Shown here in pieces: positions 23,823 through 36,668 of a stretch of 63,970 nt of DNA. Source of the stretch: Acidobacteriota bacterium. GTDB lineage: Bacteria; Acidobacteriota; Thermoanaerobaculia; Thermoanaerobaculales; Sulfomarinibacteraceae. Within the stretch, counting starts at the first letter, position 1; each line of letters begins with the position of its first letter. The position numbers and the translations under genes are program-made. The stretch is taken from contig JAHECW010000007.1 of NCBI GenBank assembly GCA_024641545.1, forward strand, positions 1-63,970, given 5' to 3'. Below the pieces are notes generated by a model, which saw only the letters and a program-made list of their open reading frames with translations, did not search any database and had not been told where the DNA came from.

Positions 23823-25262
23823 CTACGGCGTCGTGCTCGACCAGGCCCCGGTGTCGTTGGATTCGAAACCATCCGCGAAAATTTCGGTGAACCCGGTGAC
23901 CGTGTGGCCCACGTCCTTGAACTGGGCTGGAGTGAGGTCCAGTTGGTCGAAGACATCGACGCTGGTGAACGGCTCCATCAACAGATCGGGCGAGGCCGTG
24001 ACGTCCCAGTGGGAGATCGATGAACCCGGCGCTACCGTTGTGGGCGCGTAGAGCAGGGCGAGTCCCGAGGCGTGGACACCGAGACGATTGTTGACCCGCA
24101 GGATGCCGCTGACCCCCGGCAACTCCGCTTCGATGGTGGCGCCGTCGTTCTGGCCGAGCGCCACCACGGGGATGGTCACCGCGCCGCCGTCGACCCCCGC
24201 CCCCATGAGCACGAGGACGGTGCCGTCGCGGTCGTTGGCGATCACGGCTGCACTCGCGCCGGCGTTCTCGGAGTTGAGCGCCTTGAGCCCGAACTCGCAG
24301 TTGCCGCGATTCATGATGGCGATCCTTCCCGGTGTGAAGCCGACCAGCGGCCCACAGGCGTCCGAGGGTGTCGCCGAACCGGTGTTGACGAGCTCGAACT
24401 CGCCCGACATTTCATCGGGAGGCGCTCCTCCGAAACCGGCGCCGAGGGCGCCATAGGTTCCAGCGATGCCGGGTGGTGAGGTGACTTCGAGGTCCATCGC
24501 CCCGGCAAAGAAGGTGGTCGGGACCTCCGCCGTGACGTTCGGACCGTCCCACGCGAGGTTGCCGTCGTTGGTCGCCGACGCCGCCCGCTGCGCGTTGCTC
24601 ATCTCGGTCCAATGCAGCCCGGCAGTCATGTCCAGGATGTAGTAGTCGAAGATCCCGGGAGCGCCGAAGTAGGGGACCCCGGTCGAGGAGTTGACGAAGC
24701 TCGCGAAACCGAGCCCGTGACCCATTTCGTGCAGCACGACCGGAAACAGATCCTCCGCCCCGGCAGGTTCGTTGCCGTCGAGGCCGTAGTAGAAACCCGG
24801 CGGCGTGCACTGCGCCGGATCGTCCCAATCGCTGTTGTAGGTGATGAAGAAGTCGGCGTTGCCCGGATTCTGGTCGGTTCCCGTGATCGAGTCGGCGATG
24901 GCGCTGTGATAGAAGACGTTCGGAACCGGCGCGCCGGGGAAGTTCATGTACGCCGTCCCCGGGCTGGTTGATCCGAGCACGTTGCAGTTGCCCATCGGAT
25001 TGAACCGGGCGAGGATCCTGATGTCCACCGAACTGACGACCCTCTGGGCCCAGGCATCGGCGACCGCTTCGAGCACGATGAGCCGTTGCGCGCCGAGGGT
25101 GGTGCCCGTGTTGCCTCCGACCGGCGTGGCCGGGGTCGTGTCGTTGAGCCCCTCGCCCGGACCATCGCCGTTGACGATGACGAAATTCGCGGCCGCCCCG
25201 ACGCCGGGAGACAGCAGCATGGTGAGGATTGCGAGCGCGACGAGATATCTGGTTTTCATCAT
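23823..25262 (-). CDS. Secreted zinc metalloprotease with PA domain and C-terminal tail
   Basis: 479 residues. Start at the first of two adjacent ATGs (25262) after a GAGGGG ribosome site. Signal peptide MMKTRYLVALAILTMLLSPGVGAAA. Zinc site HEMGHGLGFAS starting at His178, with DYYILDMTAGLHWTEM downstream; overall resemblance is to metzincin-like secreted proteases. Residues about 275-375 form a PA (protease-associated) insert, with GRIAIMNRGNCEFGLKALNSENAGASAAVIAND. The C-terminus is IFADGFESNDTGAWSSTTP, the tail shared with three other secreted proteins here. The gene follows a small secreted protein by 7 bases, so the two form an operon. Substrate unknown. Confidence 0.82.
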   Translation of the reverse strand: MMKTRYLVALAILTMLLSPGVGAAANFVIVNGDGPGEGLNDTTPATPVGGNTGTTLGAQRLIVLEAVADAWAQRVVSSVDIRILARFNPMGNCNVLGSTSPGTAYMNFPGAPVPNVFYHSAIADSITGTDQNPGNADFFITYNSDWDDPAQCTPPGFYYGLDGNEPAGAEDLFPVVLHEMGHGLGFASFVNSSTGVPYFGAPGIFDYYILDMTAGLHWTEMSNAQRAASATNDGNLAWDGPNVTAEVPTTFFAGAMDLEVTSPPGIAGTYGALGAGFGGAPPDEMSGEFELVNTGSATPSDACGPLVGFTPGRIAIMNRGNCEFGLKALNSENAGASAAVIANDRDGTVLVLMGAGVDGGAVTIPVVALGQNDGATIEAELPGVSGILRVNNRLGVHASGLALLYAPTTVAPGSSISHWDVTASPDLLMEPFTSVDVFDQLDLTPAQFKDVGHTVTGFTEIFADGFESNDTGAWSSTTP

Positions 25263-25269
25263 TGCCCCC

Positions 25270-25755
25270 TCACTCGGCCACGGCCGTGTCGGCCTGGTCG
25301 TCGGCGTGCTCCTTCTGGTACTCATCGAGCCCGACGACGAACGCGATCGCCGCATCGAGGTCCCGAAAACAGCCGCGGGCACGGGTGCCGTCGAGGTTGG
25401 TCCTCGCGACATGGACGTCGCGCATGGCGCCGTTGCTCTCGCCGCGCACCGTCCCGTCGGCGGCGGTTGCGACATCGGCTTCCACCGGCCACCCGAAGTG
25501 GGGGGCGAGCTCGAGGCGAAGCATGGCGATCCGTGCGTGGGTCGCCACGACGACCTCACCGGTCCGGGAGTCGCGGTACTTCAGATCCCCCGCGGCGATG
25601 CGTTCATCCAACGCGATCATCGAGGCGGACCTGCCGACACTCTCGCTCAACGGGTCAGCCGCGGACGCCGGCGTGACGAGAGCCAGAGTTGTGACTGTCA
25701 ATATCATCGCGGCGCACAACGACATGCACACCGACATCTGGGCGGTTGTTCTCAT
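25270..25755 (-). CDS. Small secreted protein upstream of the PA-domain protease
   Basis: 161 residues, not recognised. ATG 25755 with a CGGGGGAAA ribosome site. A long signal peptide (residues 1-33, ending TPASAAD). The mature part is mostly polar, with EVVVATHARIAMLRLELAPHFGWPVEAD, a VRGESNGAMRDVHVARTNLDG region, one Cys (RGCFRD) and an acidic C-terminus. It may fold as a small alpha/beta domain. Being first in an operon with a secreted protease, it could be an inhibitor or folding helper, but nothing in the sequence proves it. Confidence 0.6.
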   Translation of the reverse strand: MRTTAQMSVCMSLCAAMILTVTTLALVTPASAADPLSESVGRSASMIALDERIAAGDLKYRDSRTGEVVVATHARIAMLRLELAPHFGWPVEADVATAADGTVRGESNGAMRDVHVARTNLDGTRARGCFRDLDAAIAFVVGLDEYQKEHADDQADTAVAE

Positions 25756-26111
25756 GATTTCCCCCGTTTTTCCGCCGGTCGGAACGGGGCCGTTGAAAAC
25801 CGGGAAACAAGACCACCTCGTGCCCGTCTTCGGCCGATACGAACCCCTACCACCGGCGCATCTACTCCATTGTTGTATCGCGGCACGGCCGGAAGGTCAA
25901 ACAACCGAGTCCGTCCCGGCCCGCAGGTCTCGCCAGCGGTTCGACTTCGGCCGACGATGCACCGCCCGAGGACATCCTGTCTCGGTTCGGCCGCAGCGCC
26001 CGGTCGCCCTCGCGACGAAACCCGGGGAGAAGTGCGGGCTCAACCCTTGCGGGCACGCACCTGCCGTCATACTCTGCCGTCGGCGCGCCGCGCCCGGTTG
26101 GAGGTCCTGCA
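25756..26111. other. Divergent spacer, 356 bases
   Basis: Lies between the protease operon (minus) and the M14 carboxypeptidase gene (plus). No gene or convincing operator. The promoters of both must be here; the A/T-richest bit is CTCCATTGTTGTATCG near 25866-25881. Confidence 0.4.
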
Positions 26112-28565
26112 ATGAAAGCCCGTCTTCTGATCCTGGGATTGATCTCGATCGCCCTGCTGAGCACCACCACCGGCCCGGTCTATGCAACCGAGCCGCCGAC
26201 CAACGAGTGTTCGATCACCGTTGTCCGCGCCTGGTTCAGCAGCCGCGCCCAGGTCGAGGCCTTCGCCGCCCATGACGAACCCTGGGAGGTCCACCACGAC
26301 AAGGGGTGGATGCTGGTCGGCGCCGACGCGGACAGCCTCCGGCTCCTGCTCGATCTGGGTTTCGACATCGAGATCGACGAGGCGCGAACCGCCGAGATCT
26401 GCGCGCCGAGAAAACGTCGTCCGGATCAGATCGAGGGCATCCCGGGCTACGCCTGCTACCGAACCGTCGAGGAGACCTTTCAGACCGCGCAGAACCTGGT
26501 GACGAACCACCCGGATCTGGCGTCGTTGATCGATGCCGGCGATTCTTGGGAGAAGGTGACGCCCGGCGGCAGCCCGGGCTACGACATGAAGGTCCTTCGG
26601 CTCACCAACGCCAACGTCGCCGGAACCCCGCCGGCCGGTTTCACGGGCAAACCGCGTCTCTTCGTCACCTCGGCGATCCACGCCCGCGAGTACACCACGG
26701 CCGAGCTCATGACCCGTTTCGCCGAGTACCTGGTCAGCAACCACGGTACCGACGCCGACGCGACGTGGCTGCTCGACGAACATGAAATCCACCTCATGCT
26801 GCACACCAACCCGGACGGCCGCAAACAGGCCGAGACCGGGCTGTCATGGCGCAAGAACACCAACGAGAACTACTGCTCCCCGACATCGAGCTCCCGCGGC
26901 GCCGACCTCAACCGCAACTTCGAGTTCCAGTGGGGGTGCTGTGGCGGCTCGAGCGGCGACCAGTGCTCGGCCACCTACCGCGGCCCTGCAACCGCCTCGG
27001 AACCCGAGGTCCAGGCGGTCCAGACCTACGCCCGGTCGATCTTTCCCGATCAGCGCGACCCCGCGCTGGGGGCCGCCGCCCCGGCCGACGCGACGGGGAT
27101 GTACATCGACATCCACTCCTACTCCGAGCTGGTTCTCTGGCCGTGGGGTTTCACGTCCACAGCAACCGGCAACGGGACCGCGCTCCAGACCCTCGGCCGC
27201 AAGCTCGCCTTCTTCAACGGATACGAACCTGATCAGGCCATCGGCCTCTACCCCACCGACGGCACCACCGACGACTTTGTCTACGGCGATCTCGGGGTGG
27301 CCGCCTACACCTTCGAGCTCGGCAACTGGTTCTTCGAGGACTGCATCGATTTCGAATCGACGATTCTCCCCGATAACCTCGCGGCGCTGATCTACGCCGC
27401 CAAGGTCGTGCGCACGCCGTACCTCAGCCCGGCCGGCCCCGAGATCACCGACGCCGCGGCAACCGCCGCGGTCGTCGCGCCCGGCGATCCCGTCGCCATC
27501 CTCGCCAACGCCGACGATTCCCGATTCAACAACTCGAACGGGACCGAGCCGACCCAGCCGGTTGCCGCGGCCGAGCTCTTCATCGACGCACCGCCGTGGC
27601 AAGCGGGGGCGAGCGCCATCGCCATGATCGCGACCGACGGCGCCTTCGACACCGCCATCGAACCGATTCAGGGCGAGATCGACACCACCGGGTTGGCCGA
27701 CGGCAGACACACGGTCTATGTCCACGCCCGGGACGCGGGCGGGAACTGGGGGCCGGTCAGCGCCGTCTTCGTTTGGATCCTCGATCCGGGCACCGCCGCC
27801 CACATCGCCGGCAACGTCACCGCCGTCGGCGGCGGCTCGCCCCTGACGGCAACCGTGGCCAGCGGCATCTTCACCACCCAATCCGATCCCGGCACCGGCG
27901 CCTACGATCTGAGGCTTCCGGAGGGAACGTACGACGTCACCGCTGCAGCGGAAGGCTACGGCAGCCAGACCGTGACCGCGGTCGCCGCCGCCCCCGGGGT
28001 CATCACTCCCCTCGATTTCGTCCTCACGCCCTACGAGATCGTCCTCGCCGACGCCGTCGAAACCGGCAATCTCGGTTGGACGGCCGAGGGTCAGTGGGCG
28101 ATCACCGAAGAGGCATCGGCGAGCCCCAGCCACTCCTGGACCGACAGCCCGGGCGGTGTCTACGGCAACTACTGGGATGCCTCCCTGACGTCGCCCGTGC
28201 TCGATTTTCTCGATGTCGCCGGGGTCACCCTCGAGTTCGCCCACATTTTCGATCTCGAGAGCGGGTACGACTACGCCCTCGTGGAGACCTCGGTTGACGG
28301 TGGCGCCACCTGGTCGACCGCGGCATCGTTCAACGGCCTCAACCATACGGTCTGGGAGACCGTCGAGATCGATCTCGGCAACCTCGACCACGTCGCCGAT
28401 GCCAGGGTCCGGTTCCGGATCGACACCGACGTCTCAATCACCGAGGACGGCTGGCACATCGACGACATCGTCATCCGCGGCTTCGCCGAGCCCCCGCCGG
28501 GGCTGGTCTTCCGCGACCGATTCGAGACCGGCGACACCTCGGCGTGGAGCGCGGTGGTGCCGTAA
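26112..28565 (+). CDS. Secreted M14 zinc carboxypeptidase with C-terminal beta domains and tail
   Basis: 817 residues. ATG 26112 with a GGAGGTCC ribosome site; signal peptide MKARLLILGLISIALLSTTTG. A propeptide-like region (about 30-105) precedes the M14 domain. Zinc ligands: His190 and Glu193 (IHARE), His335 (DIHSYSE). The catalytic Glu is Glu402 (YTFELGNW). Substrate-binding NPDGR and the RNF block (DLNRNFEFQWG) are also intact, indicating an active carboxypeptidase of the A/B type. About 470-560 is an Ig-like domain, 570-650 a carboxypeptidase regulatory-like or CNA-B-like domain, and 655-795 a jelly-roll (MAM/immunoglobulin-like) domain. It ends FRDRFETGDTSAWSAVVP, the shared tail. Probably digests extracellular protein. 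Confidence 0.88.
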   Translation: MKARLLILGLISIALLSTTTGPVYATEPPTNECSITVVRAWFSSRAQVEAFAAHDEPWEVHHDKGWMLVGADADSLRLLLDLGFDIEIDEARTAEICAPRKRRPDQIEGIPGYACYRTVEETFQTAQNLVTNHPDLASLIDAGDSWEKVTPGGSPGYDMKVLRLTNANVAGTPPAGFTGKPRLFVTSAIHAREYTTAELMTRFAEYLVSNHGTDADATWLLDEHEIHLMLHTNPDGRKQAETGLSWRKNTNENYCSPTSSSRGADLNRNFEFQWGCCGGSSGDQCSATYRGPATASEPEVQAVQTYARSIFPDQRDPALGAAAPADATGMYIDIHSYSELVLWPWGFTSTATGNGTALQTLGRKLAFFNGYEPDQAIGLYPTDGTTDDFVYGDLGVAAYTFELGNWFFEDCIDFESTILPDNLAALIYAAKVVRTPYLSPAGPEITDAAATAAVVAPGDPVAILANADDSRFNNSNGTEPTQPVAAAELFIDAPPWQAGASAIAMIATDGAFDTAIEPIQGEIDTTGLADGRHTVYVHARDAGGNWGPVSAVFVWILDPGTAAHIAGNVTAVGGGSPLTATVASGIFTTQSDPGTGAYDLRLPEGTYDVTAAAEGYGSQTVTAVAAAPGVITPLDFVLTPYEIVLADAVETGNLGWTAEGQWAITEEASASPSHSWTDSPGGVYGNYWDASLTSPVLDFLDVAGVTLEFAHIFDLESGYDYALVETSVDGGATWSTAASFNGLNHTVWETVEIDLGNLDHVADARVRFRIDTDVSITEDGWHIDDIVIRGFAEPPPGLVFRDRFETGDTSAWSAVVP

Positions 28566-28653
28566 CCGCAACGCCTGAACTTTCCCTTTCCTGGTGGGTC
28601 GACCGCGACGGGACTGCTCGCGTTCGGATACGATGACTCACGGAGGATGCTGC

Positions 28654-30276
28654 ATGACCCGCCATCGATTCGTCGACACGACCGCTCTCGTGCTTGCCGC
28701 GGCACTCGGCATCGCTGGCGGCGTCCGCGCTGACCAGCCCTCCCCCATCCCTCTCGAGACGCCCGATGATCTCTACCTCGAGGTCGATCCGTCATCGCTG
28801 GCAACCGAGCCCTCGACGCGAGCGATGCGGGGCAGCCGGGTCAGCGTTCAGGTCAACGTCGACCGCAACGGTTTCAACATCGTCGGTGATGCGGCCAACG
28901 AACCCTCCATGGCGGTTGACCCGACCAACCCCAACCGCCTTGCCATCGGCTGGCGCCAGTTCGACACCATCAGCTCCAACTTCCGCCAGGCCGGCTGGGG
29001 ATTCAGCACCGACGGCGGACGCAGTTGGACCTTTCCCGGCGTGCTCGAGCGCGGCGTCTTCCGTTCCGACCCGGTGCTCGATTTCGACGACGCCGGGCGG
29101 TTCTACTACAACAGCCTTCGGGCAGAGGCCTCCGACTTCTGGTGCGAGGTCTACGCCTCCGAAACCGGCGGCTTCTCGTGGCACGAGCCGGTCTTCGCCC
29201 ACGGCGGCGACAAGCAGTGGATGAGCGTCGATCGGACGGGCGGCATCGGCGACGGCAATATCTACAGCCATTGGACCTCCTACTGGGGGGCGACCGGCGA
29301 CAACGCCTTCAACCGTTCCACCGACCACGGAGCCACCTTCGACTATCCAGCCGTGATGCCGGGCTCTCCCTACTGGGGCACGACAACCGTGGGGCCCGAC
29401 GGCACGGTCTATGTCGTCGGTCTCGCCCAGACCGGACCGCTGCCCATCGTCGTCGCCTGGTCGACCACGGCCGAGGACCCGATGACCCCCCTCGCCATGG
29501 AGGGCTCGTCGTATCTCGATCTCGGCGGCCTCCCGGCATCGTTCATCCCCGACAGCCCGAACCCCGAGGGCCTGCTCGGGCAGATCTGGGTCGCCGCCGA
29601 TCACTCGGGCGGCCCGAACCACGGCAACATCTACGTCGTCGGCTCGGTGGATCCACCGGGCCCGGACCCCCTCGACCTCCATTTCATCCGCTCCACCGAC
29701 GGCGGTCAGACCTGGGAAACACCGGTCACCATCAACGATGACCCCGCCGGCGGCAACGCCTGGCAGTGGTTCGGCACCATGTCGGTGGCGCCCGACGGCC
29801 GCATCGACGTGATCTGGAACGATACCCGGAACGACCCGTCGGGTTATGACTCCGAGCTCCACTACTCCTTTTCCTTGGATGGCGGTCAGACCTGGTCGGC
29901 GAACGAAGCGCTCTCACCCGCCTTCGACCCGCACCTCGGCTGGCCCAACCAGAACAAGATGGGCGACTACTACGAGATGGTATCCGACCGCACCGGCGCC
30001 GACATCGCGTGGGCGGCGACCTTCAACGGCGGACAGGATGTTTACTACCTGAGAATTGGGGACCGCGACTGCAACGGAAATTCCATCGGCGATTCGATCG
30101 AACCGGACACCGACCACGACGGGATCATCGATGACTGCGACAACTGCCCGGCGACCGCCAACCCCCGGCAGACCGACAGCGACAACAACGGGACCGGTAA
30201 CGCCTGCGACAGCCTCATCTTCGGCGACGGCCTGGAATGGGGCAGCGACGCGGCGTGGAGGGCGGTGGCGCCCTAG
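28654..30276 (+). CDS. Secreted BNR/sialidase-like propeller protein with thrombospondin type 3-like calcium repeats
   Basis: 540 residues. I start at ATG 28654, which has a CGGAGGA ribosome site; upstream codons do not. Signal peptide about residues 1-27. The body is a six-bladed-type propeller with Asp-box repeats: FSTDGGRSWTF, STDHGATFDY, STDGGQTWET, SLDGGQTWSA. It lacks the arginine triad needed to assign a true sialidase, so the glycosidase call is not supported. Residues about 475-520 have CNGNSIGDSIEPDTDHDGI and CDNCPATANPRQTDSDNNG, thrombospondin type 3 calcium loops. The end IFGDGLEWGSDAAWRAVAP is a divergent form of the shared tail. Stands 88 bases after the M14 gene. Confidence 0.78.
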   Translation: MTRHRFVDTTALVLAAALGIAGGVRADQPSPIPLETPDDLYLEVDPSSLATEPSTRAMRGSRVSVQVNVDRNGFNIVGDAANEPSMAVDPTNPNRLAIGWRQFDTISSNFRQAGWGFSTDGGRSWTFPGVLERGVFRSDPVLDFDDAGRFYYNSLRAEASDFWCEVYASETGGFSWHEPVFAHGGDKQWMSVDRTGGIGDGNIYSHWTSYWGATGDNAFNRSTDHGATFDYPAVMPGSPYWGTTTVGPDGTVYVVGLAQTGPLPIVVAWSTTAEDPMTPLAMEGSSYLDLGGLPASFIPDSPNPEGLLGQIWVAADHSGGPNHGNIYVVGSVDPPGPDPLDLHFIRSTDGGQTWETPVTINDDPAGGNAWQWFGTMSVAPDGRIDVIWNDTRNDPSGYDSELHYSFSLDGGQTWSANEALSPAFDPHLGWPNQNKMGDYYEMVSDRTGADIAWAATFNGGQDVYYLRIGDRDCNGNSIGDSIEPDTDHDGIIDDCDNCPATANPRQTDSDNNGTGNACDSLIFGDGLEWGSDAAWRAVAP

Positions 30277-30288
30277 GGGCGAAGTCCG

Positions 30289-30335
30289 CGGCAGGGGCGG
30301 CGGCAGCGGCAGGGGCAGCGGCAGGAGCAGCGCGC
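30289..30335. repeat. GGCAGC-type hexamer repeat, copy 5
   Basis: Units GGCAGG/GGCGGC/GGCAGC/AGCAGC directly after the BNR gene stop. Confidence 0.7.
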
Positions 30336-30495
30336 CGAGCACGCGGGAACAAACGCTCACCGGGGGGTGCCGGGTTTGACAATGTGCCCCAGTAGCCTAC
30401 CGGCTCCGTGCCCCGTCCCGCACAATGTCATACTGGGCAACCCTCGCGGCACAACCTCCCGGTGCATCTCTCCCGGCCGCGAAACAGGCCGCCGG

Positions 30496-30555
30496 CGCGC
30501 GATCAGCGTGGTCGCAGTCCTTCCCGTTCTGCTCTCCGACCACGCTGATCGCGCG
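30496..30555. repeat. 19-base perfect inverted repeat with 22-base loop
   Basis: CGCGCGATCAGCGTGGTCG (30496-30514) and its exact reverse complement (30537-30555). No T tract, so not an ordinary terminator. It borders the REP-like copy B. Confidence 0.75.
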
Positions 30556-30559
30556 ACGC

Positions 30560-30715
30560 TGGGACGCCGAAGGCGGACCGGAAGGCCGGAGCTGAAGGAA
30601 CCGCTTGCGCCGCCCGCGCCCGTGCCCGATGGTGCCAAAACACTACGGCATCCTGCGGGCGGGACGCCCGCACCACAATGGGCGGCCCGGAATGCCGGAA
30701 CTGAAGGAAACGCGG
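30560..30715. repeat. REP-like intergenic element, copy B
   Basis: Repeats the string of copy A: GCATCCTGCGGGCGGGACGC, CCGCACCACAATGGGCGGCC, CGGAA(G/T)GC(T/C)GGA and CTGAAGGA, in the same orientation. The upstream part also has GGAAGGCCGGAGCTGAAGGA. Confidence 0.75.
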
Positions 30716-30725
30716 TCTCATCACC

Positions 30726-30731
30726 TACAAT
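30726..30731 (+). promoter_or_regulatory. -10 hexamer TACAAT, six bases before GTG 30738
   Basis: TACAAT-aagggc-GTG. AAGGG is too close to the start codon to act as a ribosome site. Confidence 0.45.
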
Positions 30732-30737
30732 AAGGGC

Positions 30738-33374
30738 GTGCGGATCATCACGACCCATCTTTCCGCCGATTTTGACGCGTTCGCTGCGGCGGTGTGTGCG
30801 GTTCGGCTCTATCCCGACCACAGGGTGCTTTTCCCCGGCTCGCACGAGGCCGCGGTCCGGCGCTTCATCTCCGACACCGGCTTCCCCTTCCCCGAGCTCA
30901 AGCTCCGCCGCGCCCGCCGCGAAACCATCGAGCATGCCGTGGTGGTCGACACCTCGACCCAATCCCGCCTCGGCGAGGTCTGGGACCTCATCCGGCGCGA
31001 CAACTGCCCCATCGATCTCATCGATCACCACTCAGAGGAACGCATGGGCGCCATTGGCGCCGACACCACCATTTTCCGCCCGGTGGGCGCAACCTGCACC
31101 ATCATCGCGGGGCTCTTCGCCGACCGGGGCATCGAGCCCACCGAGGAGGAAGCCTCGCTGCTGATGATGGGCATCTACGAGGACACCGGCGGGCTTTCCT
31201 ACCGTGAAACGACGGCTGAGGATCTCCGCGTGGTCGCGCGCCTCGTCGAGTTCGGCGGGTCGCTGGCCTGGGTCCGCCGCTGGGTCCTCAAGGGTCTCCA
31301 GCCCGAACAGCTCTCGCTGCTCAACCGCATCGTCGAAGCGGCGGAAGAGTTTTCCATCAACGACATCCCCGTCTCCCTCGCCATGGTCGAGGTCGATCGC
31401 TACCACGAAGAGGCGGCGTACGTCGTCCACCGCTGGGTCGAGACCTTCGAGCTCCCGGTCGGGATCGTGATGCTCGTCCAGCCCCCCAATATCAATCTCA
31501 TCCTCCGCGCCCGCATCCAGGGTCTCCACCTGGGCGAGGTGGCGCAGCAGTTCGGCGGCGGCGGGCACGCCACCGCCGCGTCCGCTCGGGTTGCGGATCG
31601 CATGCCGGTCGAACTTCGCGAAGCGCTCATCCTCGCCCTCACCGAGGCCCTCCCTCCCCCTGCCACCGCCATCGACGTGGCCAATCGGCACATTTTTTCC
31701 GTCAATGCCGATGACGATGTCGAGACCAGCAAAGAGAGGATGAACCAGCTTCGACTCAACGCCATGCCGGTCAAAGGGGCCGACGGCAAGCTGACCGGCA
31801 TGGTCACCCGCCAGATCCTCGACCGGGCACTCGGCCACGGGATGGCGGCGCGGCCGGTCCGGTCCATCATGCAGCCGGATCTGCCCGTCGTCGCGGCATC
31901 GGCCTCGCTCGGCGATCTGCGCGATCTCTTCCTCGAACGCTCGTACCGATTCGTCGTGGTCGAAGATGCCGACCGGGCGGTCGGCATCGTCACCCGAATG
32001 GAGCTTTTTCGCCGCTTCTTCGAACGCCAGCACGCAGCCGGATCGGTCCTCGATCACCGGATGGCCGGCGCACGACCCGTCAGCCAGTCGATCTCCCGCC
32101 TCCTGCGGGAAAAGACCGCCCCCTGGGTGCGCGAGCTTCTCGGCACGGCCAAGGCCGTGGCGGACACCGTCGGCATCGCCGTCTACCTGGTCGGCGGCAT
32201 GGTCAGAGACCTCCTCCTGGGTCGGCAGAACGAGGATGTCGACCTCGTCGTCGAGGGATCCGGCATCGACTTCGCTTATGCCCTTGCGGCCTATGTCGGC
32301 GGACGGTGCCACCCGCACACACCTTTCCTGACCGCGGTCGTCACGCTCCCGGACGGCCATCGAGTCGACATCGCCTCGGCTCGAACCGAGTTCTACCGGA
32401 CCCCGGCCGCGCTGCCCGAAGTGGAGACTTCGCTCATCCGTCAGGATCTCTATCGCCGCGATTTCACCATCAACTCCCTCGCGGTCGCGCTGCACGGGGA
32501 GAAACACGGCGAGCTGGTGGACTTCTTCGGCGGCAGGATGGATCTCCAGCGCCGCGAGATCCGGGCCCTGCACTCGCTGTCGTTCATCGACGACCCGACC
32601 CGCGCCATCCGCGCCGTGCGGTATGCCCGCCGGCTCGATTTCACCATCGCCCCGGATACCCGATATCTGATCACGACCGCGGTCGGGGAGGGGGTCTTCG
32701 AGCGCCTTTCCGGACAACGGCTGCGCCGGGAGCTCGAAACCCTCCTCGCCGAAGATCACGCGACCTTTGCCATCGAGTTGCTCGCCGACCTCGGTCTGCT
32801 GCCGGCCATCTGCGAAGGACTGATCTGGTCGGCAGGCGTCCGCGCGACGCTCTTGGAAGTCGAGAGTCAACTCGGCTGGTTCGAGCTCGAGGAACTCGGA
32901 CCACCGCCCGAACCGTGGCTCCTCTTTCTCGGCGGTCTCGCCATCCAGGCGGGCGATGGTGTCACTCGCCGGATGGCCGATCGCCTTCTGCTCACGGGAG
33001 ACCACCGTCGAAGGATGCTCGACCTCGAACGTGGGGTGGCGGAGGTCCGGCAGGCAGGCGATTCATCGCTTCGACGATCGTCCCGGGTCCGGGCGGTGGA
33101 GCAACAGCACTCGGAGGTGATCCTCCTCGCCATGGCGGGAATCGATCTCGCCGCGCGGCGGAGGCTCGCGGACGCCGTCGCGGCATCGGTCCGCGTCCGA
33201 CCCCAGGTCAGGGGTCGGCAACTCATCGATGCCGGGGTCGAGCCCGGTCCGTGGGTGGGTCGGGCACTGCTTCAGACCCGAGACGCCATCGTGGATGGCG
33301 AGATCAACGCGGATCGATCCTTCGATTTCGCACGGGCCTCGGCCGCGAGGTACCAGGAGGAGGGGTCGGAATGA
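30738..33374 (+). CDS. DHH-CBS-tRNA nucleotidyltransferase fusion (A-adding or CCA-adding type)
   Basis: 878 residues. Three modules. 1-305: DHH/DHHA1 phosphoesterase, with LSADFDAFAAAV, the DHH signature in LIDHHSEE, and QFGGGGHATAASA at the DHHA1 end. 310-440: two CBS modules (HIFSVNADDDVETSKERM; VRSIMQPDLPVVAASASLGDL). 450-870: class II nucleotidyltransferase, with YLVGGMVRDLLLGRQNEDVDLVVEG (GG and DxD), RRDFTINSLAV and FIDDPTRAIRAVRYARRLDF. The same three-part design occurs in bacterial A-adding enzymes that split CCA synthesis between two proteins. Whether it adds A or the whole CCA cannot be decided here. GTG start with TACAAT six bases upstream. Its stop overlaps the next ATG (ATGA). 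Confidence 0.9.
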   Translation: MRIITTHLSADFDAFAAAVCAVRLYPDHRVLFPGSHEAAVRRFISDTGFPFPELKLRRARRETIEHAVVVDTSTQSRLGEVWDLIRRDNCPIDLIDHHSEERMGAIGADTTIFRPVGATCTIIAGLFADRGIEPTEEEASLLMMGIYEDTGGLSYRETTAEDLRVVARLVEFGGSLAWVRRWVLKGLQPEQLSLLNRIVEAAEEFSINDIPVSLAMVEVDRYHEEAAYVVHRWVETFELPVGIVMLVQPPNINLILRARIQGLHLGEVAQQFGGGGHATAASARVADRMPVELREALILALTEALPPPATAIDVANRHIFSVNADDDVETSKERMNQLRLNAMPVKGADGKLTGMVTRQILDRALGHGMAARPVRSIMQPDLPVVAASASLGDLRDLFLERSYRFVVVEDADRAVGIVTRMELFRRFFERQHAAGSVLDHRMAGARPVSQSISRLLREKTAPWVRELLGTAKAVADTVGIAVYLVGGMVRDLLLGRQNEDVDLVVEGSGIDFAYALAAYVGGRCHPHTPFLTAVVTLPDGHRVDIASARTEFYRTPAALPEVETSLIRQDLYRRDFTINSLAVALHGEKHGELVDFFGGRMDLQRREIRALHSLSFIDDPTRAIRAVRYARRLDFTIAPDTRYLITTAVGEGVFERLSGQRLRRELETLLAEDHATFAIELLADLGLLPAICEGLIWSAGVRATLLEVESQLGWFELEELGPPPEPWLLFLGGLAIQAGDGVTRRMADRLLLTGDHRRRMLDLERGVAEVRQAGDSSLRRSSRVRAVEQQHSEVILLAMAGIDLAARRRLADAVAASVRVRPQVRGRQLIDAGVEPGPWVGRALLQTRDAIVDGEINADRSFDFARASAARYQEEGSE

Positions 33375-34009
33375 AATGCCGGATCGGCGCCGTGACCGCA
33401 GCGTGGCTGCTGGTCGCGTTGCTCTCGGCAACGGCCCAGGCGCCGATGCCGGTCGTTGAGAGGATCACCGACCATCGCGGCCGAATCACCCGCGTCACCC
33501 TTTTTTCCAACCACGTGGTCATCGTGTCGATCCGATCCGACGACGACAATTTCATCCACCAGGCGACCCTGAACTTCGACGAGTACATGGTCTACCTCCA
33601 GGCCTTCGAGAAATGCGCCCGGGAAATCGGCAACGAGCCGGTCACCTCCGATGTGGAAAGCCGGGACAGCTCCACGAAGGTCGTCCTCCACGTCGGTCCG
33701 GACCCGCCGCGGATCATCGAGTACTCACCGCTGGCTTCCCTCGACCTCCCGACCGGCAAGATCGCCTCGATGATCGACGACATCCAGAATCGGGCCCTCG
33801 CCGCCCTCCCGGGCGAGTTCGAGATCAACCAGTGGAGGCCCGCCATCGGCGACCGGGTCGAACTTCGCCAGGGCGGTCAGGCCTCGGTCACGGCAATCGA
33901 CGATGACGGCACCATTCTCCTGAGCCAGGTCGACGGCCCGGTGTCGTACACCGTCGCCAAGGACAGCCGCGTCAATGTCGTTCTCAGGGTCATCGAGCCC
34001 GCGCCATGA
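33371..34009 (+). CDS. Secreted hypothetical protein between the nucleotidyltransferase and rsmD
   Basis: 212 residues; not recognised. ATG 33371 overlaps the upstream stop, with a GGAGGAGGGG ribosome site 6-8 bases before it inside the upstream gene. Signal peptide MKCRIGAVTAAWLLVALLSATAQ. The mature part is beta-rich: PVVERITDHRGRITRVTLFSNHVVIVSIRS, VVLHVGPDPPRIIEYSPLASL, then a helix and the strands RPAIGDRVELRQGGQASVTAIDDDGTILLSQVDG. It has no cysteine after the signal. Overlap on both sides (rsmD follows with another ATGA) means it is co-translated with two RNA-modifying enzymes, which is odd for an exported protein and may only reflect operon packing. Confidence 0.7.
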   Translation: MKCRIGAVTAAWLLVALLSATAQAPMPVVERITDHRGRITRVTLFSNHVVIVSIRSDDDNFIHQATLNFDEYMVYLQAFEKCAREIGNEPVTSDVESRDSSTKVVLHVGPDPPRIIEYSPLASLDLPTGKIASMIDDIQNRALAALPGEFEINQWRPAIGDRVELRQGGQASVTAIDDDGTILLSQVDGPVSYTVAKDSRVNVVLRVIEPAP

Positions 34010-34569
34010 GGGTGACGGGCGGCGCATGGCGATCGCGGCGGATCCGGGGGCCATCCAAGGGCCAGAGGCTCCGGCCGACGCCCGATTCCATGCGCGAACG
34101 CGGTTTTGCCGTCCTCGGCGACACCGTCGTCGGCGCTCGGGTGCTCGATCTTTTTGCCGGCACCGGCGCGGTGGGGATTGAAGCCCTCTCGCGGGGGGCG
34201 GCCACGGCGGTCTTTGTCGACGCCCACCGGAGCGCCGCAACGCTGATCAGGGCGAACCTGGAATCGCTCGGGGTCGGGCGTGATCGCGGCCTGGTGATGA
34301 ACCGGCAGGCAGCACGAGCAGTCGTCGAGCTCGAGCAGCGCGGCCGGATCTTCGATCTCGTGTGGGCCGATCCCCCCTTCGAGAAGTGGCCCGATGGCCT
34401 TGAATCCCTGGTCGCGGCGGTGGCCGCCGGGATCACCACCGGCGACGCGGTTCTGTGCCTCGAATGTCCCGCCAAAGCCGATGTCGCTGCGGTCCTCCCC
34501 GACGGCCTCTCGATCGAACGAGATCTCGCGGGCGGTGCCTCGAGAGTGGTCATCCTGCGCAGGCGGTAG
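34006..34569 (+). CDS. rsmD: 16S rRNA (guanine966-N2)-methyltransferase RsmD
   Basis: 187 residues, normal family length. Begins MRVTGGAWRSRRI; LRPTPDSMRERGFAVLG corresponds to the RPT-D-x-RE block of RsmD. SAM-binding motif I is VLDLFAGTGAVGIEALSRGA, with VFVDAHRSA after it. The catalytic tetrapeptide is DPPF in LVWADPPFEKW. The C-terminal half is a little shorter than in E. coli. Last gene of the overlapping trio that starts at 30738; two hairpins follow. Confidence 0.92.
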   Translation: MRVTGGAWRSRRIRGPSKGQRLRPTPDSMRERGFAVLGDTVVGARVLDLFAGTGAVGIEALSRGAATAVFVDAHRSAATLIRANLESLGVGRDRGLVMNRQAARAVVELEQRGRIFDLVWADPPFEKWPDGLESLVAAVAAGITTGDAVLCLECPAKADVAAVLPDGLSIERDLAGGASRVVILRRR

Positions 34570-34604
34570 ATCATCGATGCCGGATTCACGCCGTTGGAGA
34601 TCCG

Positions 34605-34641
34605 TTTTTGCCCCCGGCCGCACTACAACCGGGGGCAAAAA
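34605..34641. terminator. Bidirectional terminator between rsmD and the PilZ gene
   Basis: TTTTTGCCCCCGG (34605-34617) and CCGGGGGCAAAAA (34629-34641) pair perfectly, giving a T tract on both strands. Suits the convergent genes on either side. Confidence 0.9.
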
Positions 34642-34645
34642 AGAA

Positions 34646-34669
34646 CCGCGGGACCCTTGGGTCCCGCGG
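34646..34669. terminator. Second perfect hairpin of the convergent terminator pair
   Basis: CCGCGGGACC-CTTG-GGTCCCGCGG, four bases after the previous hairpin. No T tract; probably stabilises the end of the minus-strand transcript. Confidence 0.6.
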
Positions 34670-34714
34670 ACATAGGACGTCGGTCCGCTCGGAGGGCGAG
34701 ACGCGGTGCCGGCG

Positions 34715-35122
34715 TCACACTGTGTACAAAGATCCCGAAATCACGGCTCCCTGGGTTACGGCAACGGGTCCTTCCTGAACCTGGTCGTTGGCGCAGCAGT
34801 TGCAGATCAGCTGTCTGAGGGTGGTCATCCGATCCTGGTCGAGATCGACGAACTCGAGGCCTGAACGGTAGGCCACCTTGCATCCGGTATCGGTCTTGGT
34901 GAGTTGGGCGCGGCAGCGGCGGACTTCCGCCTTCAAGACGAAGTCACTGCCGAAGGAGGAGACCCTGAGTTCGCAGAGGGTTGCGGGGGGGAGCCCGAGC
35001 CGGGTTTCAACCTGGACGCCGCCTTCGGAGATATCGACGACTCTGAAATCCATGGTCGACTTCACTTTTCCGGTGATGTCGTAGTTCGGTTGGTGCCTCG
35101 GATGGCGGCGGCGTTCTTCCAT
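34715..35122 (-). CDS. PilZ-domain protein
   Basis: 135-residue single PilZ domain, a likely cyclic-di-GMP receptor. The N-terminal arginine motif is ERRRHPRHQPNYDITG and the second motif DISEGGVQVE matches (D/N)xSxxG; both together predict binding of c-di-GMP. A third block is GCKVAYRSGLEFVDLDQDRM. The C-terminus has a CNCCAND cluster and an added hydrophobic tail. Start ATG 35122 is chosen over the ATG at 35134 because GGAGG lies five bases upstream. Stands alone, so its target (motility, secretion, exopolysaccharide) cannot be read. Confidence 0.85.
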   Translation of the reverse strand: MEERRRHPRHQPNYDITGKVKSTMDFRVVDISEGGVQVETRLGLPPATLCELRVSSFGSDFVLKAEVRRCRAQLTKTDTGCKVAYRSGLEFVDLDQDRMTTLRQLICNCCANDQVQEGPVAVTQGAVISGSLYTV

Positions 35123-35320
35123 GTCAGCCTCCATGCCAGTCCAATAGCAAGGATGGTGCCAGCTTTCCCATCGCCGCGGCTGATCATCGGGAGGCGCCGG
35201 CTGTCCGATCCTGGTACACGCCGTCTCAGTACGTTTCACCTGGCGCGGGCGGGGGGCAGCCGGGCGAGCCCCAACCCTGCAACACCGCCGAACGCAACTC
35301 ACTCACACGACTGAAATTAC

Positions 35321-35353
35321 AAAAAGACCCGAGGGGCGCCGACCCTTCGGGTC
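35321..35353 (-). terminator. Intrinsic terminator of the trypsin-like protease gene
   Basis: Read on the minus strand: GACCCGA...TCGGGTC followed by TTTTTG, 25 bases after the protease stop. Confidence 0.8.
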
Positions 35354-35378
35354 AGGTTGAAACGGGGGTTGTGCCGGA

Positions 35379-36668
35379 TCAGGGGACGGCCGAACTCCAG
35401 GCGCCGGTGGTGCCGGACTCGAACCCATCGGAAAAGATGTCGTTGGTATTGGCGATCGCGCTCGGAGGCAGGTTCGACCCGAGATCGGCAATCACCTGCT
35501 CGATGAGCACGCCGGTGTTGATGCTCGTGCTGCCGCAGTGGTGAAGCGCAATGATCTGCTGGTCGTCATAGGACACCACCGGCGAGCCCGAGGAGCCTCC
35601 CTGCGTGTCGGCGCGGTAGCCCATGTCCGGTCCGGGTCGCGAGCCGCAGCCGCCGTAGTTTTTTGAAACAACAAACGGCCAACCGTCCGGGTCCAACCCT
35701 TCGGAGCTGAAAACGGCGATCCGCTTGCCCCAGCCGGAGGGGTGCTGGGGAATGTAGAGCCGCTCTCCGATCACCCCACCGGTCGGCCGCAAGGTGAAGA
35801 AGCCGTAGGTCGACGATGGGTTGACCGACAGCTGGACGAGGGCGTAGTCATAGTCGTAGGAGGTCTGGATCAGAGTTCCGGACGTGGTGACGATGGTCCC
35901 CGGACATTGCAACTGCCAGCAGTTGGTCGAGCAGTCGGCGCCCTCGGCCATGAACTCGTAGTTGGTGTTGCTCGCCGCCCCCTGGGTGCTGATGCAGTGG
36001 TTGTTGGTCAACATGTGGCCGTCGTTCCCCACCAACCAGCCGGTGCAGAGCGAGGATCCGTTGATGAGGAGCCTCGCCACCGCTCTGCTCTTGTCATAGA
36101 CGTTCGGCTCAGAAACCTCGTAGCACGGCGCCCACTCGGAGTCGTCCGCCCCGATGATGGCCTCCGGAGCGCTGCCTGCACCCGTTTCCCCGGGCGTGAA
36201 CCCACGGGCAAATCGGTCGATGACGTAGCCGAACCCCCCGCTCCCACCGGCTGCCCAGAGCTCGACAACGGCCGTGTCGCCGGCGATGTGGATGCCCCAG
36301 AAACCGTCGTCGTCGAGACCGAGGTCGTCGACGCCGTACCTCTCGTAGCGCCACGATCTCGATCCATCCGGCGACCGCACCACGACGAAGTCCCCCTCGC
36401 CGAGTTCGAGGCGACCGAAGTGCGGGCAGATGTACGACGCATTCGGATAGTGGATGACGTCGGACCACACCAATTGCGCCGCCCCGATATCGCTGCTCCC
36501 CAGGTACGGGTTGGGCGAGGCATAGCTCTCGTGGATGTCTTCACCGACAATCTCCACGGTCGGCGCCGGTTGGCTCGCGTCCGCCGGTCTGGTGGCGGCT
36601 GCGGCGGCCGGACCCGCGGCGGTCAACAAGAATGTCAATACGAATACGACCAGGATTGCACGGTACAT
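35379..36668 (-). CDS. Secreted trypsin-like serine endopeptidase with C-terminal tail
   Basis: 429 residues. ATG 36668 with a GGAGGAGAAG ribosome site; signal peptide MYRAILVVFVLTFLLTAAGPAAAAA. An N-terminal beta domain (about 40-150), then a chymotrypsin-fold domain with a full triad: His224 (MLTNNHC), Asp274 (YDYALVQL) and Ser360 (TQGGSSGSPVV). Several cysteines (about eight) suggest disulfides. The C-terminus is IFSDGFESGTTGAWSSAVP, the shared tail. Similar to glutamyl-endopeptidase-like or lysyl-endopeptidase-like bacterial trypsins; specificity not assigned. Followed by its own terminator. Confidence 0.87.
   Translation of the reverse strand: MYRAILVVFVLTFLLTAAGPAAAAATRPADASQPAPTVEIVGEDIHESYASPNPYLGSSDIGAAQLVWSDVIHYPNASYICPHFGRLELGEGDFVVVRSPDGSRSWRYERYGVDDLGLDDDGFWGIHIAGDTAVVELWAAGGSGGFGYVIDRFARGFTPGETGAGSAPEAIIGADDSEWAPCYEVSEPNVYDKSRAVARLLINGSSLCTGWLVGNDGHMLTNNHCISTQGAASNTNYEFMAEGADCSTNCWQLQCPGTIVTTSGTLIQTSYDYDYALVQLSVNPSSTYGFFTLRPTGGVIGERLYIPQHPSGWGKRIAVFSSEGLDPDGWPFVVSKNYGGCGSRPGPDMGYRADTQGGSSGSPVVSYDDQQIIALHHCGSTSINTGVLIEQVIADLGSNLPPSAIANTNDIFSDGFESGTTGAWSSAVP

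Follow-up and report, generated by a model that had tools for sequence, protein, structure and literature searches.

Four secreted proteins encoded in a stretch of 63,970 nucleotides from an Acidobacteriota bacterium of the class Thermoanaerobaculia (contig JAHECW010000007.1, positions 1 to 63,970; the whole stretch is called the window hereafter) end in closely similar tails of 20 residues. Pfam searches found the proteins unrelated in the domains N-terminal to the tail, which raises the question of what a terminal peptide shared by such different proteins is for. Based on the comparisons below, the tail is probably a donor β-strand, the short half of a split jelly-roll tag/catcher pair that docks secreted proteins on a shared anchor. 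The other half would be a small secreted jelly-roll protein without this strand, termed the acceptor. The four tails of the window, each of which runs up to the stop codon, are:

23826-23885, minus strand: tail EIFADGFESNDTGAWSSTTP of a PA-domain metalloprotease gene (23823 to about 25559) with the signal peptide MMKTRYLVALAILTMLLSPGVGAA
28503-28562, plus strand: tail LVFRDRFETGDTSAWSAVVP of an M14 carboxypeptidase gene (26112-28565)
30214-30273, plus strand: tail LIFGDGLEWGSDAAWRAVAP, the most divergent of the four copies, of a BNR/TSP3-repeat protein gene (28594-30276)
35382-35441, minus strand: tail DIFSDGFESGTTGAWSSAVP of a trypsin-like protease gene (35379-36668)

A short tail on unrelated secreted proteins

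Neither Pfam nor NCBIfam, the Por-secretion-tail models included, has a model that matched the tail, and no dockerin was matched on the four window proteins. The M14 carboxypeptidase also carries a MAM-like jelly-roll N-terminal to its tail. A looser regular expression found no fifth tail, and no other open reading frame of the window is tailed. A literature search for the tail motif or for such a system, with most subscription papers beyond reach, returned nothing.

Within its own genome (5.38 Mb, 310 contigs) the tail is frequent. The DNA pattern F-x-D-x-x-E-x-G-(..)-A-W gave 54 matches, all with identical spacing, against one for the reversed pattern, and a looser pattern gave 107 against 0 for its control; a frame-shift control, in which the pattern was one base short, had 0 matches here and matched in 2 of 297 genomes. 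The stop codon lies exactly five residues past the tryptophan in 39 of 53 own-genome copies and at most ten in nearly all. Across all loci read, 238 of 275 copies are at the extreme C-terminus, while 4 were classed as N-terminal and 32 as internal. The consensus of the 238 is [ILV]-F-A-D-G(95%)-F-E-S(76%)-G-D(63%)-T(66%)-S(50%)-A-W-S(79%)-x-x-x-P(92%), in which F, D, E, G and W are set by the search pattern itself, but the glycine at position 3 and the final proline are conserved though the pattern leaves both free. No hydrophobic stretch, membrane helix, cysteine, basic cluster or basic end is present in this consensus (FxDGFESGDTSAWSxxxP).

At the DNA level all 54 own-genome tails differ from one another, and their identity is 0.62 at third codon positions versus 0.80 at first and second positions, so the tail is conserved at the protein level. 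A copied DNA element was considered and is ruled out by the synonymous variation together with the unrelated flanks. Fifty tail proteins of this genome, clustered after their tails had been cut off, form 34 sequence-unrelated clusters. By a crude rule, a signal peptide is present in 25 of the 31 complete own-genome tail proteins versus 13 of the 39 untailed window genes, and in 137/169 when all tail proteins are taken together. No secretion gene recurs among the neighbours of tail genes.

The initial annotation, made from the window alone, had described a lineage-specific tail common to unrelated secreted proteins and devoid of a membrane helix or basic cluster, and this description has been borne out on the larger sample. 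The restriction to proteins with signal peptides that it proposed to test holds, by the crude rule, for most tail proteins rather than for every one. A scan of related genomes agrees with the lineage specificity. Among 148 genomes of Thermoanaerobaculia the distribution is bimodal, with 1-87 copies in 59 genomes and none in 89 (reversed controls 0 throughout), and of 264 genomes sampled from the phylum outside the class only 3 had a match, a single one each. Presence of the tail varies inside families f1 and f7, and even inside one genus.

Several individual tail loci deserve mention. In two places (G015 C1:45536-45634 and G000 C170:31424-31595) a pair of tail genes converges head-on, the motifs being about 20 and about 95 bases apart. 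Six loci (L220, L125, L243, L251, L098 and L063) have 20-45 additional residues between motif and stop, and resemble tails whose stop codon was lost or whose frame was shifted. One further locus (L083, JAHZIX010000045.1) comes from a metagenome-assembled genome (MAG) titled 'Deltaproteobacteria bacterium P_S1_bin.14'; its domain coordinates are the same as those of G348, a genome of the window's class, and the record title is probably wrong. Another (L129, JAPHRL010000065.1) is a single tail on a contig of a 'Kangiella' MAG that has no acceptor, probably a contaminating contig.

The tail as the first strand of a jelly-roll domain

It was the internal copies of the motif that revealed the proposed mechanism. 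Such copies, outside the phylum in Anaerolineae as well as in those members of the class with few tails, are followed by a domain of about 190 residues starting with 'DLxVxxxAAxxGxxGL'. No Pfam or NCBIfam model matched this domain above its cut-off; AlphaFold and Foldseek place it among the ConA/LamG-like jelly-rolls (the X122 domain, alginate lyases and lectins). In 41 of these domains the strand directly N-terminal to the core reads F-A-D-[GD]-F-E-S-G-D-L-S-A-W, which is the tail's own sequence, and in complete homologues FADGFESGDTSAW stands immediately N-terminal to the 'LxV..AA..G..GL' block. The two consensus sequences match position by position. Scored with a matrix built from the cis strands, the tails reach 38.7 +/- 4.9 and shuffled tails -16.3 +/- 8.5. 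The tails are nonetheless tighter in consensus than the cis strands, with G at position 3 and T at position 9.

Altogether 96 domain copies were read, and those within larger proteins have a recognisable strand, or a variant of it, before the core; the regular expression used for the strand (a 40/56 split) missed variants such as VDGFESGDLSGW, and the cis class is therefore understated. In some f84 copies a large insert separates strand and core. Of 33 clear cases of a domain within a larger protein, 26 end at most 15 residues from the C-terminus. Tail-poor relatives keep the strand in cis, and their secreted proteins are closed by the complete domain. The cis and trans arrangements interchange among homologues of the trypsin-like window protein: those of tail-rich genomes have the tail at their end, those of G354 and G411 continue into a complete jelly-roll domain, and those of tail-negative genomes are closed by unrelated modules, PPC-like and EF-hand-like ones among them.

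Not every copy away from the C-terminus belongs to a complete domain. Four proteins without a jelly-roll core (L058, L062, L106 and L140) carry the motif right after the signal peptide, at the mature N-terminus, and one large protein (L180/L235) has it within a loop of DUF11 repeats; the other internal copies are first strands of complete jelly-roll domains. At the N-terminus or in a loop a strand donor can still function, which would be impossible for a signal that an enzyme removes at the C-terminus. Strand donation accounts better than C-terminal processing for a tag found at either end or in a loop.

A secreted protein without the first strand

Following the look-alike domain led to the partner. 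The jelly-roll core was made into a profile that omits the first strand, and tail-rich, tail-poor and tail-negative genomes were searched with it. Most tail-rich genomes encode a small secreted protein that consists of the core only and is often the sole match, and among the tail-negative genomes searched only one, G144, had a match. In this protein the signal peptide and its cleavage site are followed immediately by NSLDVNASAAAAGTNYGLEV... and the sequence ends ...DEFASFRTLAP, the first strand being missing. About 30 stand-alone proteins begin past the signal peptide in this way, without the first strand found in their homologues. The acceptor of the window's own genome lies outside the window:

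28989-29663 of contig C9, plus strand: own-genome acceptor gene, 225 residues including the signal peptide, mature start 'NSLxV...'

Tails stop 5 residues past the tryptophan and acceptors start about 2 residues ahead of LxV, and the corresponding loop of complete domains has a median of 9 residues (mostly 6-10). As judged from the sequences, the split falls in one and the same loop in tails and acceptors. An exception among the stand-alone forms is the orthologue-like L302/L066 of tail-poor G390, which has the strand in cis after its signal peptide (FADGFESGDTSAWS) and reads QQIFADGFESGDTSAWSKARKPRGLDV...FRTLSP. The strandless stand-alone proteins do not form a single clade in a tree of 87 cores: the f83 pair L303/L316 falls among complete C-terminal domains of its own genome (approximately unbiased (AU) test p = 0.006, for a group chosen after the tree was seen), so the splitting of the domain probably happened at least twice, and the strandless stand-alone forms probably have more than one origin. 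Acceptor columns that are invariant or nearly so hold G, E, D, R, V, A, P, F and S. As no lysine is conserved among them, an isopeptide bond is unlikely.

AlphaFold models of both forms were compared. The acceptor is predicted to fold without the first strand (predicted local distance difference test (pLDDT) 84.4, predicted template modelling score (pTM) 0.84) and to have a long last strand (186-198), and the cis version (pLDDT 92.7, pTM 0.91) has its first strand, residues 2-6, confidently placed. The nearest solved folds to both models are the X122 domain (PDB 8q28/8q29/8q2a), ConA/LamG-like lectins and alginate lyases. This likeness is at the fold level only (5-17% identity). The acceptor shares its fold with proteins that bind carbohydrates. 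We know of no X122 domain, ConA/LamG-like lectin or alginate lyase that is split.

In four genomes (G375, G380, G388 and G407; loci L411, L412, L415 and L421) the strandless acceptor runs into C-terminal SLH-type repeats, recognized by PF00395 with E values of 3.6e-13 to 6.8e-18 in G388, G375 and G407 and by sequence likeness in G380. The common stand-alone acceptor has no SLH repeats. Such repeats hold proteins to the cell envelope, and these fusions therefore mark the strandless protein as an envelope anchor.

In the genomic surroundings of several acceptor genes (L286 at G000 C9:20000-38000, and L289, L290, L292, L294 and L298), glycosyltransferase, sulfatase-fold, methyltransferase and SGNH/GDSL genes are often found, an arrangement resembling surface-polysaccharide clusters.

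Co-occurrence of tail and acceptor was followed with a second search, in which a profile of the strandless proteins was applied to the 148 genomes already scanned for tails. The acceptor is present in 28 of 29 genomes with at least 20 tails, 35 of 39 with at least 10 and 49 of 59 with any, versus 5 of 89 without tails. Fisher's test of genomes with at least 20 tails against those with none gives p of about 6e-21, a value not corrected for ancestry; an exact test stratified inside the two mixed families yields P = 3e-5. A search of named records for these genomes (several are identical assemblies) found the domain in 21 of 26. Of the five tail-free genomes with a match, G325 and G401 have the complete domain with the strand in cis, G399 has a strandless protein and one variant tail, and G144 and G200 are taken up below.

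Probable docking by strand donation and its alternatives

In the mechanism that we propose, an ancestral ConA/LamG-like jelly-roll at the C-terminus of secreted proteins would have become split. Its first strand, FxDGFESGDTSAWSxxxP, would have been retained as the 20-residue tail of about 50-100 different secreted proteins, and the remaining roughly 200 residues would be produced as a separate secreted protein without that strand. After export, presumably across the outer membrane, each tail would fill the acceptor's empty strand position beside the long last strand, and the completed lectin-like domain would keep the cargo attached to the cell envelope or to polysaccharide at the surface. The acceptor may accordingly be a lectin-like envelope or capsule anchor that the tail completes. 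The broader picture, a natural tag/catcher display in which one strandless lectin per genome serves about a hundred proteins and in which a C-terminal domain was split more than once, is probably also correct.

Strand complementation and docking modules are each known principles. Donor-strand complementation operates in archaeal thread filaments (PMC9715654) and also in chaperone-usher pili. As there, an acceptor without one strand of its fold, an incomplete beta-sandwich, would be completed by a matching strand of another polypeptide. Pilins, however, polymerise with like subunits, whereas here about 100 unrelated enzymes would donate to a shared jelly-roll; the fold also differs, and no usher or chaperone family is found or implied. 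With the cohesin-dockerin pairs of cellulosomes the tail shares the principle of many secreted enzymes, one small terminal docking module and a shared surface receptor, but a dockerin is a self-folding EF-hand-like domain of about 60 residues, and the tail is a strand of the receptor's own fold. SpyTag/SpyCatcher, made by splitting a surface domain of Gram-positive origin (PMC6539128), similarly relies on a short peptide, a strand of a domain, that recombines with the remainder. The tail system differs in being natural, one-to-many and built on a non-immunoglobulin jelly-roll in which an isopeptide bond is unlikely.

If the proposal is right, sorting and anchoring would be accomplished without enzyme, lipid or transpeptidation, and a 20-residue strand would be the entire address label, with one shared protein as the dock. 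It would explain the destination of dozens of unannotated proteins in an abundant uncultured class of soil and sediment, offer a natural strand-based tag that occurs at either end of a protein or inside a loop, and provide an example of a domain split into a one-to-many module.

Alternatively, the tail could serve in sorting, as the signal read by an as yet undescribed enzyme of secretion or processing (resembling sortase, rhombosortase or the type IX secretion system, T9SS), the strandless protein being another cargo or an accessory. The extreme C-terminal position of 238 of 275 copies, the fixed length, the 92% final proline and the association with signal peptides are as this would have it. 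The tags of GlyGly-CTERM/rhombosortase, MYXO-CTERM/myxosortase and PEP-CTERM/exosortase (PMC3237569, PMC11980579) resemble the tail in placing one C-terminal tag on dozens of unrelated secreted proteins per genome, many-to-one; they are, however, tripartite, with a helix and a basic end, and processed by a membrane enzyme, while the tail is without helix, cysteine or basic cluster. The tail and type IX signals have in common that a beta-rich C-terminal signal is found on secreted proteins. A T9SS signal is an entire domain, about 70-100 residues long, that depends on SprA, PorV and PorU; the tail has 20 residues and matches no T9SS domain model. Known machinery does not track the tail either. 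SprA (PF14349) was found in 0 of 30 genomes in a search that lacked a positive control, since no control genome matched either; rhombosortase TIGR03902 exceeded its cut-off in 3 of 31 genomes and a secretin like that of the type II secretion system (T2SS) matched in 31 of 31, both independently of tails. These candidates (ALTERNATIVES: T9SS, with the limit just given, rhombosortase and T2SS) were set aside. Copies at the mature N-terminus and in DUF11 loops also speak against a sorting signal, which further leaves unexplained why the partner is without exactly this strand; we consider it improbable.

Much of what the initial annotation had supposed can be reassessed here. Its idea of an attachment tag appears right in general, and a partner that occurs along with the tail was indeed found; this partner is a strandless jelly-roll protein instead of the enzyme that had been envisaged, and the likeness to type IX signals is not supported. 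The placement at the very end applies to most copies. Internal occurrence had been named as a finding that would speak against the idea, and such copies exist; they are first strands of complete domains and a few N-terminal or loop tags.

The strandless protein could also be a periplasmic chaperone or pilot that binds the tail strand before outer-membrane transit, rather than the final anchor. It has a signal peptide, is small and occurs in about one copy per genome with many clients, and the periplasmic chaperones of the chaperone-usher pathway likewise work by strand complementation. Yet the SLH-fused acceptors of four genomes and the complete domains that end the relatives' secreted enzymes point to a permanent extracellular module, which makes a transient role quite unlikely. 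Still less credible is a functionless vestige of lost C-terminal domains with a co-occurrence due to shared ancestry: the tail's sequence is indeed that of a first strand, in a domain that relatives have whole, but a vestige would decay and would not turn up at N-termini or in loops, whereas a genome carries the tail about 100 times, on unrelated families, conserved at the protein level and with a strict consensus of its own, tighter than that of the cis strands.

Several points weigh against docking by strand donation. G328, a MAG that is 94% complete, carries about 90 tails, yet a search found no acceptor in it, and G356 has tails but likewise no acceptor was found. Conversely, G144 has a strandless protein fused to a dockerin and no tails, and G200 a strandless protein and no tails. 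The co-occurrence is a correlation; genomes rich in tails are often larger, and a within-family test is possible in two families only. The pairing of first and last strand is deduced from the fold type, the models being single chains, and glycan binding is suggested only by fold similarity and neighbouring polysaccharide genes.

The acceptor of G200, a genome of 2.0 Mb, lies at C34:91991-92566 (L331/L424); neither pattern finds a tail there, and this organism may use a diverged tag. G144 belongs to a genus of the same family that has no tails; its strandless protein (L267/L295, C117:30593-31117) ends in a type I dockerin, the only dockerin seen, and a trypsin homologue of the same genus (L213) ends in EF-hand-like repeats. 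Perhaps the tag has been replaced in this genus by another docking module.

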